Positions 26,500 to 58,827 of a stretch of 64,000 nt of DNA are shown piece after piece; position 1 is the stretch's first letter, and each line of letters opens with the position of its first letter. Position numbers and translations under genes: made by a program. The DNA comes from Pseudoduganella dura (GTDB taxonomy: Bacteria > Pseudomonadota > Gammaproteobacteria > Burkholderiales > Burkholderiaceae_D): assembly GCF_009727155.1 (NCBI RefSeq), contig NZ_WNWM01000002.1, positions 5,704,001-5,768,000 of the forward strand, given 5' to 3'. The notes beneath the pieces were generated by a model. The model was given only the letters and a program-made list of their open reading frames with translations. It did no database searches and was not told where the DNA came from.

Positions 26500-26576
26500 G
26501 GGCGGTTAGTTCAGCTGGTTAGAATACTTGGTCGACATCCAAGGGGTCGGGGATTCGAATTCCTCACCGCCCACCA
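26500..26576 (+). tRNA. tRNA-Val(GAC), copy 1
   Basis: 77-nt cloverleaf with encoded CCA. Acceptor GGGCGGT/ACCGCCC, D stem GTTC/GAAT, anticodon stem CTTGG/CCAAG around TCGACAT, T stem GGGGA/TCCTC. Anticodon GAC reads GUC/GUU. Position 33 is C instead of the nearly invariant U, in both copies. Confidence 0.93.
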
Positions 26577-26668
26577 GAATGCGAAGAGGTGCTCCACGGT
26601 GTGGGGCGGCCTCATCGAATTCAGGACAGCAAGGCAGTATGGTAGTGGAAGTGCAACGCAGTACAAGA

Positions 26669-26745
26669 GGGCGGTTAGTTCAGCTGGTTAGAATACTTGG
26701 TCGACATCCAAGGGGTCGGGGATTCGAATTCCTCACCGCCCACCA
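26669..26745 (+). tRNA. tRNA-Val(GAC), copy 2
   Basis: Identical over all 77 nt to copy 1, 92 bp downstream, with CCA encoded. No separate promoter is evident in the spacer, so both are probably cut from one precursor starting at the promoter before copy 1. The spacer does not resemble a tRNA. Confidence 0.93.
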
Positions 26746-53643: not shown

Positions 53644-53988
53644 TCAGCGCTTGGGCCGGCTTACCTGGTCGGCTACGCTGCGCATCATTTGCGCCGCTTC
53701 CGGTTCGGTATCGAACTGCGGTGTCGCCTCGAAGTCGGCCTGCGCGGCATTCACGTCATCCGCACTGACGGCCGGCGGGTCGTTTGGCGTTCCGGCCGCC
53801 GCGCCGGCGGATTCCGGTTCGGCAGGAGGCTGGTCGGCCAGCTCGTAACCGGCGCTCGCGTCCTGATCGGTTACCGTCGGCGGCGACTGATCGGGCGTGC
53901 CGCCGGTGCCGGCTTCGCCGGATACCGGGTCCGCTTGCGGCATCGAGGTGACGTCGCTGTTCTTCAAGGAGTTCGTTTCGTTGGACAT
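53644..53988 (-). CDS. small acidic, disordered hypothetical protein
   Basis: 114 residues, rich in Asp, Glu, Pro, Ala and Ser, with no signal peptide or hydrophobic segment. It ends EAAQMMRSVADQVSRPKR, a short basic/amphipathic tail. No family was recognised. It lies 26 bp after the nSTAND regulator gene, on the same strand, so it may be co-transcribed. Codon positions look real (GC-rich third bases). Confidence 0.5.
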   Translation of the reverse strand: MSNETNSLKNSDVTSMPQADPVSGEAGTGGTPDQSPPTVTDQDASAGYELADQPPAEPESAGAAAGTPNDPPAVSADDVNAAQADFEATPQFDTEPEAAQMMRSVADQVSRPKR

Positions 53989-54014: not shown

Positions 54015-56888
54015 TCAGCGGGATGACACTGCCGCCCGGACGCCCGCCATGCCGTCCCGGAGCTGTCCGACGAGCTCGCGAAGCTCCGGATTGTCCGGAT
54101 CGGCCGTGCTCATCGCGGTGCCTTGCCTTTGCAGGTCTTCGAGCACCCGCACGACTTGCGGCGTTGCCGGCTGGGCTTCGAGCTCGCGCAGCCGCAGCCG
54201 CATCAGGTCCACCTGCCACTGCTGGTTAGTGGGGTCGCGCGTGGTCAGGTCGGCTGCCAGTTCCCGTGCACGGGTGTAGGCAGCCAGCGCGGCCGGCCGC
54301 CTGCCTTCGTCGAGCCGCGCATTGCCCTGATGCCATAACGCATAAACGAGCCGGCTACGCCACAGCAATTCGTCCGGCGCGGATCGGTGCAATGCTTCGA
54401 GCAGCGTGCCTTCCTCGGCATGGCAGCGTGCCGCATCGGCGTGGCGTCCCGAGCCCGTCATCGCCTCGCCCAGCCACTGCAGGCTGTTTGCCAGTCCGCC
54501 GGCATATTTCCGCTCGTCGGGCCGGCTTGCCGCCGCGCGCCGGTTCAGCGCCACCGACTTCTCGAAGTGTCCCGCTGCCTTGTCATATTCCTTGCGCGCC
54601 ATTGCCACGGCGCCCAGGCTGTTGTGCAGGTTCGCCACCTGGTTCCAGTGGTTCGCGTCGTCGAACCGTTTCGCCAGCAGGGTGACGAGCGCCAGGCTTT
54701 GCCGGAAATGACGTTCGGCGGAATCATGCTCCCCGCGCTCCAGGTGCAGCTTGCCGAGGTCTGACGCGGTGACGCTCATCGTTTCCAGCGCGCCCGGATC
54801 GTCGGTGCTGCCCGCATGTGGAGCCAGCGACACTTGCGCAGCCTCCAGCGCCTGCCTGGCCTTGTCCGGCTGGCCGCGCGCCGTCGCGACTTCGGCGATC
54901 AGGTTCAGCGTGCCGGCCCGCTGTACCCGCGCGGTCAGGCTGTCGCGTTCGCCCGCCGCGGCCAGGTACGCCAGCGCCTTGCCGCTCACGCTGTCGAGCA
55001 GGTCGAGCCGGCCCAGCGGCCGCAGCCTGTCGGCAAAGTCGCCGAGCATGAAGCCCATCAGGCTCTCGGCCTCGGTACGGTGCCGCTCGGCCTCGTGCTG
55101 CGCGGTGCGCGCACGCAGGCCCAGCACGCCGGCCAGCACCGCCAGCAGCATGAACAGCATCATGACGACGATCACGATGCGCTGGCCCAGCTTCACGCGG
55201 TTCACCGACCGCTGCACGAATTCGCGCGCCACCGGCGTGAGCGTGACTTCGCCGGCCGCCAGCAGGCCGCGACCGCCGTTCACCTGGCTGCCGCGCGGCA
55301 GCAGCAGGTCTTTCGGCTTGCCGCCCGCGGCCCAGCGCTCGGCCTGCGCCGTCACGCGCGTGCGCACCTGCAGGTCTTGCCGGTGCCGTTCGATCCAGTC
55401 CGCCACGCGCGGCCAGCGCCGCAGCAGGGCTTCATGGGCCACGCCGAAGCAGGGCACTTCGCCGCTCAGTTCACTGACGAGCAGCCGTGCGTCCACCAGC
55501 GCCCGCACCAGTTCGCGCTGCGGTTCCGTCGCCAGGGCTTCCCAGGCGGGGCGCCGCGCGGTCACGGCATGCTGCTCGTCGCCCACGGCCACCAGCAGCG
55601 ACAGCACGTGCGGCAGCGCGGCCTGCTGCGCGGCGGGGAGCGCGGCCACCACCTGTTCGGCGCGCACGCCCAGCGCGCCTTCGATGCCGCCCAGCCGGCG
55701 GAACACATCGAAGCGCAGCAGGCCATCGTCGCCGCGCTGGCGATACAGCTCGTCCAGGCAGTACTGCAGCAGCGGCAGCACGTCCGGGCTGGCGCGGGCG
55801 GCGTCGCACAGCACATCGTCCAGCGCGGCGCCGGTGCCGGCATCGCGCTCGAACGTCAGGCGGGCGGCGCGGGCCGGTTCGCGCACCATCTGGGCGATGC
55901 CGGCGCCATCCGGCGGGTCGATGTCGAAATGGCCGCCGCGCGTCTTCAGCGCCATCATTTCCGGCACGGCCATCAATTGCGGATAAAAATCGTTGCGGCA
56001 GGCCAGCAGCACCAGCACGTTGGCACGCGCCAGGCGGTCCAGCGCGTGGAAGAACGCCGCGCGTTCGGCATCGCCGGCAGCGGCGCGGAACACCGCTTCG
56101 AGCCGGTCGACGAACACGGCCAGCCGGGTGGGGCCTGGCGGAGACAGCGCCGCGGCGACGGCGGCCGGCTCGTCGCGCAGCCGCCGGCCCAGCGACACGG
56201 CATCCACGCCGTCGAACAGCGGCGCGCCATCGCGTTCGGCATCGAGCAATACCGCCGCCAGGGCACCGAGCAGGCCACTGCCGCCCAGGTCCGCGCAATC
56301 CATGTGCAGCGGGCAGTCGACGGCGACCAGGCCGCCGTTCGCGACCATCAGCTGAGGCAGCAGGCCGGCACGCACCAGCGAAGTCTTGCCGGAGCCGGAA
56401 GCGCCCAGCACGAGCGCCATCGCGCAGCCGCCGCTGACCTGGTCGAGCACCGTCTGGCGCAGGCGCGTGGCCGCCTGCACGCGCCCGAAGAAGATCGCCG
56501 CGTGGCTTTCCTCGAACGCGGCCAGGCCGCGGAACGGCGAGCCGCCGTCCCAGGCATCGGGGCGCGGCGCTTCTTCCACCACCTCGGCGATGGCCCGGTA
56601 ACCCCGCTTGCGCACCGTTTCGATATAGCGCGGGTCTGTGCTGGAATCGCCGAGCGCCTTGCGCAATTGCGCGATCGCCTTGTGCACCGGGTTGTCGCCC
56701 AGCTCGGTGGAACCCCAGCACTTTTCCAGCAGTTCCTCGGCAGGAACCACCGCGTGCGGATGGCGGCACAGATAGCGCAACACGTCCATCGCGCGCGGTT
56801 CCAATGCCACGCGCGTCTCGCCCATGCGCAAGGCGTTGCCTGCCACTTCCACATGCCACTCGCCGAAGCGAAACCCGCGGTGATTCAT
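54015..56888 (-). CDS. membrane-anchored winged-helix/nSTAND ATPase/TPR regulator
   Basis: 957 residues. Order: OmpR/CadC-type winged helix (1-103: LEPRAMDVLRYLCRHPHAVV ... IETVRKRGYRAI), an nSTAND NTPase (PFRGLAAFEESHAAIFFGR; Walker A GASGSGKT at 162-169; Walker B-like LAVFVDRLEAVF), winged-helix-like linker, one membrane helix near 570-592 (IVIVVMMLFMLLAVLAGVLG) and a C-terminal TPR solenoid (about 650-930). The plan suggests cytoplasmic DNA-binding and NTPase domains with a periplasmic TPR sensor. It is divergent from two unknown genes over 146 bp that contain spaced repeats. Family relatives with this plan exist, but no role is established here. Confidence 0.85.
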   Translation of the reverse strand: MNHRGFRFGEWHVEVAGNALRMGETRVALEPRAMDVLRYLCRHPHAVVPAEELLEKCWGSTELGDNPVHKAIAQLRKALGDSSTDPRYIETVRKRGYRAIAEVVEEAPRPDAWDGGSPFRGLAAFEESHAAIFFGRVQAATRLRQTVLDQVSGGCAMALVLGASGSGKTSLVRAGLLPQLMVANGGLVAVDCPLHMDCADLGGSGLLGALAAVLLDAERDGAPLFDGVDAVSLGRRLRDEPAAVAAALSPPGPTRLAVFVDRLEAVFRAAAGDAERAAFFHALDRLARANVLVLLACRNDFYPQLMAVPEMMALKTRGGHFDIDPPDGAGIAQMVREPARAARLTFERDAGTGAALDDVLCDAARASPDVLPLLQYCLDELYRQRGDDGLLRFDVFRRLGGIEGALGVRAEQVVAALPAAQQAALPHVLSLLVAVGDEQHAVTARRPAWEALATEPQRELVRALVDARLLVSELSGEVPCFGVAHEALLRRWPRVADWIERHRQDLQVRTRVTAQAERWAAGGKPKDLLLPRGSQVNGGRGLLAAGEVTLTPVAREFVQRSVNRVKLGQRIVIVVMMLFMLLAVLAGVLGLRARTAQHEAERHRTEAESLMGFMLGDFADRLRPLGRLDLLDSVSGKALAYLAAAGERDSLTARVQRAGTLNLIAEVATARGQPDKARQALEAAQVSLAPHAGSTDDPGALETMSVTASDLGKLHLERGEHDSAERHFRQSLALVTLLAKRFDDANHWNQVANLHNSLGAVAMARKEYDKAAGHFEKSVALNRRAAASRPDERKYAGGLANSLQWLGEAMTGSGRHADAARCHAEEGTLLEALHRSAPDELLWRSRLVYALWHQGNARLDEGRRPAALAAYTRARELAADLTTRDPTNQQWQVDLMRLRLRELEAQPATPQVVRVLEDLQRQGTAMSTADPDNPELRELVGQLRDGMAGVRAAVSSR

Positions 56889-56941
56889 CCGATCGCCAAC
56901 CCTGAAAATTATTTTCTTTTTAAATCAGTAACTTGGCTATT

Positions 56942-56970
56942 CCGGAAGGTTTCCGGAAGGCGCCGGAAGG
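56942..56970. promoter_or_regulatory. three spaced CCGGAAGG repeats in a divergent promoter
   Basis: CCGGAAGG at 56942-56949, 56953-56960 and 56963-56970, so with steps of 11 and 10 bp. It lies 54-82 bp before the regulator start and 65-93 bp before the first divergent gene. Direct repeats at about one helix turn are the usual targets of OmpR/PhoB-type winged helices, the type carried by the regulator. Confidence 0.7.
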
Positions 56971-57034
56971 CGGCCCTGAGTAAAGTGCACTTGACTGATC
57001 AACATCAATCTTAACATTTCTTCAAATCAAATAG

Positions 57035-57790
57035 ATGCCGAACCATATTGCTTTTGCCGACCTCGAGGAATTCTCGCGGCACTACCTGAAACCGCTGCTG
57101 ATCGATGCGCTGCAGGTCCGGCTGGACGCATGGCCGGTCGCGCTGGCATTGCCGCCGGATGCCATCGTCGACCGTGCCGGTAGCGCTGGGCAACGCTCCG
57201 GCGTACCTGACGGAACGATCGGCGACCCATGCTTCGTCCGCACGGCGCGTGGCTGGACGTGGCGCGATCATGCTTTGCTGCAATGGCGAACGGGCGGGAC
57301 GGTGGCCCATCGCCGCATTTCCGAACAGGAACACCGGTATGACGTGTTCCTGTCCGAGCAGCCGGACATGGCCGGCGTGCCGCGCCCGACCGTCGACCTG
57401 CACGCGGTGCGTACCCGTTACGAGCGCGACGCCGTTATCCAGCTCGGCGCGGACAACGCCGCCTGCGACCTCGGCGCCGGCTGGGCCAGGCTGACGCTGC
57501 GCTGGTCGCTGCGGCTGCAACTGGTGGCAACGGCCGTCGGCCGGGTCAATGTGGTGACACGCGCAAAACGCCCGGCACCGCATTCCGACGCTGGCCGTAC
57601 CGGGCCCTATGTCACCGCCGATCCGCTGGCGCACCTGCTGAACGTGCGCCGGCTGGCGCGCGACTGGGAGCGGGGCGGCGCGAGCCTCGGCGCCGTGCAG
57701 GACCAGCTGGTGAGCCGGCTGGCCGCGGCGATCGAGCCGCCGCTGGCGCAGCATGCCGCATCCCATGCCGCACTCCGGGCCTGGGGCTGA
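57035..57790 (+). CDS. hypothetical protein, first gene of the divergent pair
   Basis: 251 residues, start MPNHIAFADLEEFSRHYLKP. No signal peptide or membrane helix was seen, so it should stay in the cytoplasm unless exported by a special route. The centre has alternating hydrophobic beta-type strands (RYDVFLSEQPDMAG, RLTLRWSLRLQLVATAVG), the last third is helical. No family was recognised. It precedes the next gene by 5 bp and is divergent from the nSTAND regulator. Confidence 0.6.
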   Translation: MPNHIAFADLEEFSRHYLKPLLIDALQVRLDAWPVALALPPDAIVDRAGSAGQRSGVPDGTIGDPCFVRTARGWTWRDHALLQWRTGGTVAHRRISEQEHRYDVFLSEQPDMAGVPRPTVDLHAVRTRYERDAVIQLGADNAACDLGAGWARLTLRWSLRLQLVATAVGRVNVVTRAKRPAPHSDAGRTGPYVTADPLAHLLNVRRLARDWERGGASLGAVQDQLVSRLAAAIEPPLAQHAASHAALRAWG

Positions 57791-57795
57791 ACACG

Positions 57796-58827
57796 ATGGT
57801 CAACCTGATCCTGCATCCAGGGGCGGCGCGCCGCCCGCTGTTCATCGTCCGCGACGGCAATCTTCCGCTCTTGTTCGGCGTGGACGGCGCCGGACGCCTG
57901 CGCATGCTGCAGCACATGGGCGCCGGCGCCTGGTCGGATACCGATCTTTCGGCAGCGCTGCCCGCCGCGGCGAGGGTGTGTTGCGCCGATGTGCGGCAGG
58001 CGCCCGACGGCACGATCGGCATCGCGCTGGCCATACGGCACGGCGCCGGCGACTGCACGCTGCATATCGCGACCGGGCTCGCGGCCGGGCAGGACGAAGC
58101 CGGCTGGCTGGAAGCGATGCGGCAACTGGCGCCCGTGCCGGGCCTGCCCGCCGGCACGCAGGTGACCCGCCTGGCATTCGGGCCGCTGCAGGCCGGGGCG
58201 CCGCCGCTGCTCCTGATTACCGCGGGCTCCGCCTCCTGGTACTGCAATGCCGCCGCACCGATGCACACCCTGCGTACGCTCCATTTGCCGGCGGCGCAGG
58301 CCTACGCCATCGGCAACTACCGGCAGCCGGGGATCTGGGCGCTGCACCCGTACGGGAAGGGCAGCGCACTGCGCTTCACGCCGTTGCGCGACCCGTTCGG
58401 CTGGTATGTGGCGCTCGATTATCCCGAGGTGCCGGCGCACACGCATAGCGTGCTGCTGGCACCGGGCTCGATGCCGAACGTGCCGGACCTGTACGCGGCG
58501 GGCGACCGCATCGTGGTCTACCGCGGCGGCAACACGCAGCCGCAAACGGTGGCCCAGGTGGCGGGCGCGCGCCTGGTATGGAGCCATGCACGCGAAGGCG
58601 CCGAATACCTGGCCTTCGCGGATGCGGATGGCGCCTTGTGGATGGTGATCCGGCCGTACCGTGGCACCTGGAACCCGCCGTTCCTGCTGACGCGCCGGCG
58701 CGCGGTGCTGGCGGTGGCGGGCCAGTTCATCCATGCGGCCGTGATCGAGGAGGGCCGCCTCCAGGTGCAGCGCTTCACGATGGACGGGCTTCTGTACAGC
58801 AGCGAGATCGTGACGGTGGACTGGTGA
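57796..58827 (+). CDS. hypothetical beta-propeller-like protein
   Basis: 343 residues, no signal peptide. Repeating blocks of four strands with W/G turns, for example PLLFGVDGAGRLRMLQHMG, PLLLITAGSASWYCN, DRIVVYRGGNTQPQTVA and YLAFADADGALWMVIRP, look like blades of a beta-propeller. No catalytic motif was recognised. Tight spacing to the previous gene (5 bp) means they are co-expressed and likely act together. Confidence 0.6.
   Translation: MVNLILHPGAARRPLFIVRDGNLPLLFGVDGAGRLRMLQHMGAGAWSDTDLSAALPAAARVCCADVRQAPDGTIGIALAIRHGAGDCTLHIATGLAAGQDEAGWLEAMRQLAPVPGLPAGTQVTRLAFGPLQAGAPPLLLITAGSASWYCNAAAPMHTLRTLHLPAAQAYAIGNYRQPGIWALHPYGKGSALRFTPLRDPFGWYVALDYPEVPAHTHSVLLAPGSMPNVPDLYAAGDRIVVYRGGNTQPQTVAQVAGARLVWSHAREGAEYLAFADADGALWMVIRPYRGTWNPPFLLTRRRAVLAVAGQFIHAAVIEEGRLQVQRFTMDGLLYSSEIVTVDW

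Follow-up and report, generated by a model that had tools for sequence, protein, structure and literature searches.

A membrane-anchored nSTAND regulator of Pseudoduganella dura with a conserved putative operator and a linked DP-EP-type tail gene

Which genes answer to a regulator that unites a DNA-binding domain, an nSTAND NTPase, and a membrane helix in one protein? The question is raised by a locus of Pseudoduganella dura, in which the gene for such a regulator diverges from a pair of closely spaced genes. The locus was examined in a 64-kb stretch of the 6.95-Mb genome (hereafter, the window) and compared with related loci and genomes, which are numbered with the prefixes L and G, respectively. 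The comparisons suggest that the regulator probably activates the pair from a conserved site, and that other operons take the place of the pair in front of related regulators.

The regulator and the divergent gene pair

The genes in question are the following:
54015..56888, minus strand: membrane-anchored regulator, 957 aa
57035..57790, plus strand: partner 1, 251 aa, TULIP-like fold predicted, without a sequence family
57796..58827, plus strand: partner 2, 343 aa, predicted PLL-type seven-bladed beta-propeller lectin fold

The domain architecture proposed for the regulator in the initial annotation was confirmed together with its coordinates. It comprises an OmpR/CadC-type winged helix (residues ~1–105; Trans_reg_C at 25–98, E 1.1e-19), an nSTAND1 domain (118–526; PF20703, E 1.6e-87, P-loop GASGSGKT), a membrane helix (571–589), which is the sole hydrophobic helix according to hydropathy, and tetratricopeptide repeats (TPRs; ~600–957). 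The TPRs provide the repeat superstructure beside nSTAND1 that is expected of STAND NTPases. Because the helix is single and the N-terminal domains are cytoplasmic, the TPR region presumably faces the periplasm. A wide scan of a species-genome collection with the regulator alignment returned 303 relatives, the best 80 of which were analysed (L128–L207). These are mostly Oxalobacteraceae, several of them overlapping the genus set described below, and include Shewanella, Rheinheimera, Dyella, Collimonas, Janthinobacterium, Roseateles, and Nitrospirillum. A membrane helix between residues 567 and 621 was present in all of these best 80 of 303, and some of them also have another, weaker hydrophobic stretch (141–162 or 277–309).

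An N-terminal OmpR-type winged helix and a single membrane helix, two of the traits that define ToxR/CadC-like regulators, are both found in the window protein, and a further domain past the membrane helix is the putative counterpart of the third, a periplasmic sensor domain. Residues 1–105 scored 73 bits against the CadC model, under its cut-off of 400. Unlike ToxR/CadC-type proteins, the window regulator has an nSTAND1 ATPase of ~400 residues between the DNA-binding domain and the membrane, and its distal part consists of TPRs. A survey of transmembrane transcription regulators covers the general kind, with the terms 'TPR', 'NTPase', and 'tetratricopeptide' absent from its main text (PMC10269533). 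No description of a winged-helix/nSTAND/TPR transmembrane regulator was found in the literature searched, which leaves most subscription papers outside and is not proof of novelty.

The partner genes form a tightly coupled pair as annotated initially, with partner 2 starting 5 nt past the stop codon of partner 1. The earlier statement that they lack a recognised family holds for Pfam, in which neither was matched, but both have recognisable folds, that of partner 1 less surely. One of the pair had been described earlier as beta-propeller-like. For the AlphaFold2 model of partner 2 (pLDDT 88.3), the top 19 structural matches are PLL kin, and a PLL-type (seven-bladed) propeller fold is predicted. 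Identity to PLL-family lectins (Photorhabdus PLL/PHL; CV39L, BP39L) is 11%, and the NCBIfam beta-propeller lectin model NF052348 was matched at E 0.002 and 17.2 bits, below the cut-off of 200 that marks this family. For partner 1, the predicted TULIP-like (lipid-binding) fold has moderate support. The bacterial TULIP proteins P47, OrfX2, and OrfX3 each have two TULIP domains (PMC6791001). Window partner 1 has one such predicted domain, and no OrfX-like neighbours were seen at its locus. Membership of the P47 family was rejected; the Clostridium_P47 model had no match in window partner 1, and this Pfam model found none in 195 genomes of the family. Profiles of both partners gave no match to PDB sequences at E values up to 10.

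A profile search of the genus (74 genomes) found partner 1 in 31 of them, with a flagged stop in the match of G155; all 30 positive regions outside the window were taken. Presence and orientation of partner 1 and the regulator were checked by tblastn, since the ORF caller (ORF, open reading frame) overlooked partner 1 in several loci. In all 30 relatives the regulator was divergent from partner 1, with match starts 146–224 nt apart, and partners scattered without the regulator, a possibility raised in the initial annotation, were not seen among them. Together with the window, these loci are referred to as type A (n = 31). The co-regulated effector pair proposed earlier holds in this respect for partner 1, but partner 2 was kept in only 27 of the 30 relatives (it is missing in L052–L054). 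A partial match to partner 1 in G004, which contains one stop (23 bits, E 7.1e-5), is probably unrelated and was disregarded. In an order sample of 399 genomes, partner 1 was not found outside the genus, the one positive genome being that of the window. Those homologues of partners 1 and 2 that bear names belong to Pseudoduganella, Massilia, and Duganella.

The window locus is flanked by a cupin/ABC-transporter stretch on one side and by gcvP-gcvH-gcvT on the other (gcv names were read from products). In the relatives, gcvP is convergent and lies 0.1–2 kb past partner 1 in 26 loci and 5.6–5.7 kb past it in four (L063, L065–L067), with two extra genes between. Partner 1 is longer (446–572 aa by the ORF caller) in 18 of the 30 relatives owing to an added N-terminal part; a second TULIP domain, suspected by eye in this part, was rejected after hhalign comparison with the C-terminal part (probability 0.1%). 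Partner 2 is longer in some relatives (506–556 aa), and DUF4214, suggested by eye for its N-terminal extension, had no Pfam match in the three proteins tested. The regulator frame is just 622 aa long in L040 and is interrupted by a contig end in L066.

Putative operator and promoter

The intergenic region of the window contains the following elements:
56942..56949, plus strand: operator repeat 1, CCGGAAGG
56953..56960, plus strand: operator repeat 2, CCGGAAGG, 11 bp from repeat 1
56963..56970, plus strand: third copy of CCGGAAGG, 10 bp past repeat 2
56981..56986, plus strand: TAAAGT, predicted to be the -10 hexamer of the partner operon, at a distance of exactly 20 nt from repeat 2

Three repeats one helix turn apart had been described initially. 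The spacings of 11 and 10 bp agree with this description, but the third copy was seen in only some relatives. Repeats 1 and 2 were scored as CGGAAGGTTNNCGGAAGG (16 fixed letters) in the 200–260 bp before the regulator. All 31 type-A loci retained the pair at 13 or more of 16 letters (16 in 20 loci, 15 in seven, 14 in two, and 13 in two), so that the repeat and its spacing, for which conservation had been suggested as a check, were absent from none of the relatives. As a control, the rest of 50 loci (1,599,078 positions, both strands) contained 13 sites at 13 or more letters, four at 14 or more, and none at 16. In 31 of 31 type-A loci, repeat 2 is followed at a distance of exactly 20 nt by a hexamer TA[ACT][ACT][AGT]T, the chance expectation for its occurrence within 18–21 nt being 0.7 loci; since the loci share ancestry, these operator and promoter counts are not independent trials.

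Assuming a normal 17-nt spacer before the -10-like hexamer, repeat 2 ends at about the expected start of the -35 element. A repeat ending at -35 is the class II activation geometry of PhoB/OmpR proteins. The conserved repeats, the fixed hexamer distance, and the sister regulators of the same layout described below argue for a dedicated activator site. The tandem TCCGGAAGGNTTCCGGAAGG without mismatch occurs only once in the genome. With three mismatches, four further genomic places were found versus three for the reversed control; a regulon was rejected, as no second genomic site stood above control level.

Two further features of this region were observed. In one clade (L055–L057, L059–L062), the promoter region is expanded and has extra inverted and direct copies of CCGGAAGG between the operator and the regulator. 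Many type-A loci share the block AATCTTAACATTTC, which in the window (57000–57034) lies past the -10-like hexamer and before partner 1.

Sister regulators and the DP-EP-type tail gene

A search of the 74 genus genomes for homologues of the regulator (threshold E ≤1e-60) was positive in 63 of them, at 81 listed places. Fifty places were unlinked to partner 1; 40 of these were examined and ten left out, two of the ten being fragments of the same gene. Another module is represented by one or more of its members among the divergent genes of 28 of these 40 loci. It comprises a 97-aa protein without a family, a glycosidase-type protein resembling Rv2525c (PF08924, E 2.2e-28), and often an acyltransferase (PF01757). 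These sister-regulator loci (type B; L070–L077, L095–L114) sit at a different chromosomal place from type A, and their genomes do not overlap with the 31 that have partner 1. The operator was identified at 14–16 of 16 letters in all 28, and the hexamer at offset 20 in 27, with TAGAGT in the remaining one. Relatives thus use the same operator before a different operon, and this kind of regulator is not confined to the pair. The sequence AAATATTAACATT or a similar one is the type-B counterpart of block AATCTTAACATTTC.

Among the other 12 loci, the operator scored at least 14 in three (L078, L079, L082) and 8–13 in nine. None of the gamma- and alphaproteobacterial loci among the best 80 of 303 exceeded 10 of 16 letters. 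Judged by these scores, the site tracks the kinship of the regulators rather than the output genes, and it is not general to the regulator architecture. Distant regulators of the same architecture were noticed by eye near tssB/tssC-like type VI secretion genes in L085 and L086, both among the nine low-scoring loci, and in L172.

A gene of 120–150 aa is located downstream of many of these regulators, often with a 4-nt overlap. Of the 30 type-A relatives, 22 gave a tblastn match to it (none in L044–L046, L049, and L052–L054; L066 is without that region), as did 18 of the 20 loci L070–L089, while L095–L114 were too short to assess. The Pfam family DP-EP (PF08985, which we take to be DUF1888) matched 10 of 18 aligned tail members at E values up to 1 (best, 1.6e-6), and the tail-gene profile matched PDB 3njh and its kin (E 4.6e-9). 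The relatives' tail genes therefore belong to or resemble the family of which PDB 3n55 and 3njf–3njn are solved examples, deposited as 'Peptidase'. No account of the DP-EP family or of SO1698 was found in the literature searched, most subscription papers lying outside it.

The same linkage was seen at greater distance. PF08985 was present in six of 398 phylum genomes (seven genes), and in six of six loci (L122–L127) the gene stands directly behind a same-architecture regulator that is 31–40% identical to that of the window. Within the best 80 of 303 loci, a hidden Markov model (HMM) of the tail revealed 77 genes, and a tail gene lies directly behind the regulator in 73 loci: 70 by a strict gap rule, L164 and L195 with ORFs called too long, and L184 with a gap of 247 nt. 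The remaining HMM matches are second copies just downstream. Seven loci had no match (L185, L200, L202, L131, L133, L134, L169), of which L185 and L200 encode a downstream protein with a DPQxxN or DPExxN ending (by eye) and L202 a short acidic ORF with a PEEPN ending. For L169, replacement of the tail gene by one with a Hint domain was considered and rejected (E 3.5e-5; 24.7 bits, under the Pfam cut-off of 28.4). The tail-gene linkage and the variable divergent genes together suggest that the wider core of the system consists of the regulator and the DP-EP gene, the divergent operon being interchangeable.

The C-terminal signature of the 77 tail genes has P in 77, N in 77, and D in 73. Osipiuk et al. 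reportedly described, in 2012, self-cleavage at Asp-Pro in a Shewanella DP-EP protein. Chain lengths are listed as 119 residues for 3n55, whose site is intact, and as 128 for chains altered in or close to the site. Of the 77 tails, 10 have D at the position of the Asp that is changed in 3njh (128 residues), and 21 have K at that of the KFQF Lys. Self-cleavage as a general mechanism was rejected, since the implicated Asp and Lys occur only in a minority of tails; with P and N invariant, the conserved feature is the signature and not the self-cleavage chemistry.

The window has its own version of this gene:
53644..53988, minus strand: decayed tail gene of DP-EP type, 114 aa, 26 nt after the regulator stop codon

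The product is acidic, with 15 more acidic than basic residues, and had no match to PF08985 or another family in Pfam. It shares 32% identity over 118 aa with the tail gene of L047 (P. lurida; tblastn E 4e-7 with composition correction). The DPxxxN signature and most hydrophobic positions are lost, the C-terminal end reading ...VADQVSRPKR, and the L047 protein has IPDLENRP in place of DP. Homology to the L047 tail and the lost signature account for the 'small acidic gene' that the initial annotation correctly placed behind the regulator: on sequence grounds, it is a decayed member of the DP-EP-type tail genes, the partner most widely conserved with such regulators, and this identity had been missed. 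Coupling of regulator shortening (957 aa in the window, 965 aa in L047) with signature loss was rejected, as L051, with 964 residues, keeps PDIENRP.

Several variants of the tail gene were noted. In L052–L054, where partner 2 is missing as well, and also in L131, L133, and L134, the DP-EP gene is replaced by a leader peptide, an HlyD protein, and a C39-peptidase ABC exporter, a set that resembles bacteriocin export; the leader peptide of L052–L054 is double-glycine-like (..EVxxVAGA/PELGHD.., by eye). Second tail copies whose N-terminus is Sec-like and whose ending is unchanged were seen by eye in Rheinheimera (L183, L193, L199), in L123, and as short ORFs in L044–L046. In L042, L057, L059, L041, and L044–L046, a single protein or two neighbouring ORFs carry two copies of the C-terminal PExxN tail; one of two such ORFs has a signal-peptide-like start, and the copies are alike within species.

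Proposed mechanism and alternatives

We consider it fairly probable that the regulator is a self-contained transmembrane transcription switch with a dedicated target operon. The winged helix would bind the direct repeats of 11-bp spacing in the cytoplasm and, with repeat 2 ending at the -35 position, would switch on the TULIP-like/PLL-lectin-like pair by class II activation, as in OmpR/PhoB-type proteins. The likely trigger would be ATP-dependent opening of the nSTAND domain, gated by the TPR region past the membrane helix. The pair may act as glycan- and lipid-contacting effectors directed at the surface of other cells. The DP-EP protein encoded behind the regulator in most relatives may be a cognate modulator of it, which decayed in the window lineage.

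A site between two divergent genes, with repeat 2 ending at the expected -35, is also compatible with occlusion. The regulator would in this case repress both the operon and itself, the bound repeats blocking RNA polymerase until a signal releases it. We regard this as unlikely: the exact 20-nt hexamer distance across 59 loci (58 with the pattern, one with TAGAGT), whose spacers differ, fits polymerase recruitment better, and OmpR/CadC-type proteins are mostly activators. Far less probable is an NLR-like anti-phage role, in which the regulator would sense a phage protein and the pair would kill or protect. nSTAND proteins are known in defence, and TULIP-like and lectin-like proteins could act on membranes, but a known defence system was rejected, the best PADLOC match (E 0.021 over 36 residues) covering P-loop surroundings only. 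Unlike defence islands, the locus is also found at one constant position on the chromosome, close to gcvP, in all 30 relatives, and the regulator carries a DNA-binding domain with a conserved operator.

Nor does a merely inherited neighbourhood, with the regulator controlling something else and the pair a bystander beside the gcv genes, seem at all probable. The confinement of type-A loci to one genus-level group (31 of 74 genomes) and the absence of partner 1 from the 398 other order-sample genomes agree with it, but the tandem site, the only one in the genome, faces the pair, and the same operator is kept with a different divergent operon at another chromosomal place.

Beyond the switch with its dedicated operon, a broader and distinctly tentative reading concerns the tail gene. 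Regulator and tail gene might form a self-peptide signalling module across Proteobacteria, in which the C-terminal D-P-x-x-x-N tail of DP-EP would be the ligand of the regulator TPRs, much like the C-terminal peptides recognised by TPRs of eukaryotes. Such a tail could be presented intracellularly or exported by a Sec-like signal, or its place could be taken by a leader peptide that is exported and accompanied by a C39 transporter; Rheinheimera and relatives of the window would have second exported copies. The plug-in outputs would be divergent operons of very unlike content, such as the TULIP and lectin pair, the glycosidase-like module, and, in a few cases, type VI secretion genes. If true, this would give the DP-EP family, known from solved structures, a biological role.

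The DP-EP structures in any case gain a genomic context. The regulatory unit, a membrane-tied NLR-like ATPase with its own DNA-binding domain together with a small protein family, is widely spread and was undescribed in the searches made. This suggests that bacterial STAND switches can act directly on DNA from the membrane.

Elsewhere in the window, two tandem tRNA-Val (gac) genes are located at 26500–26745.

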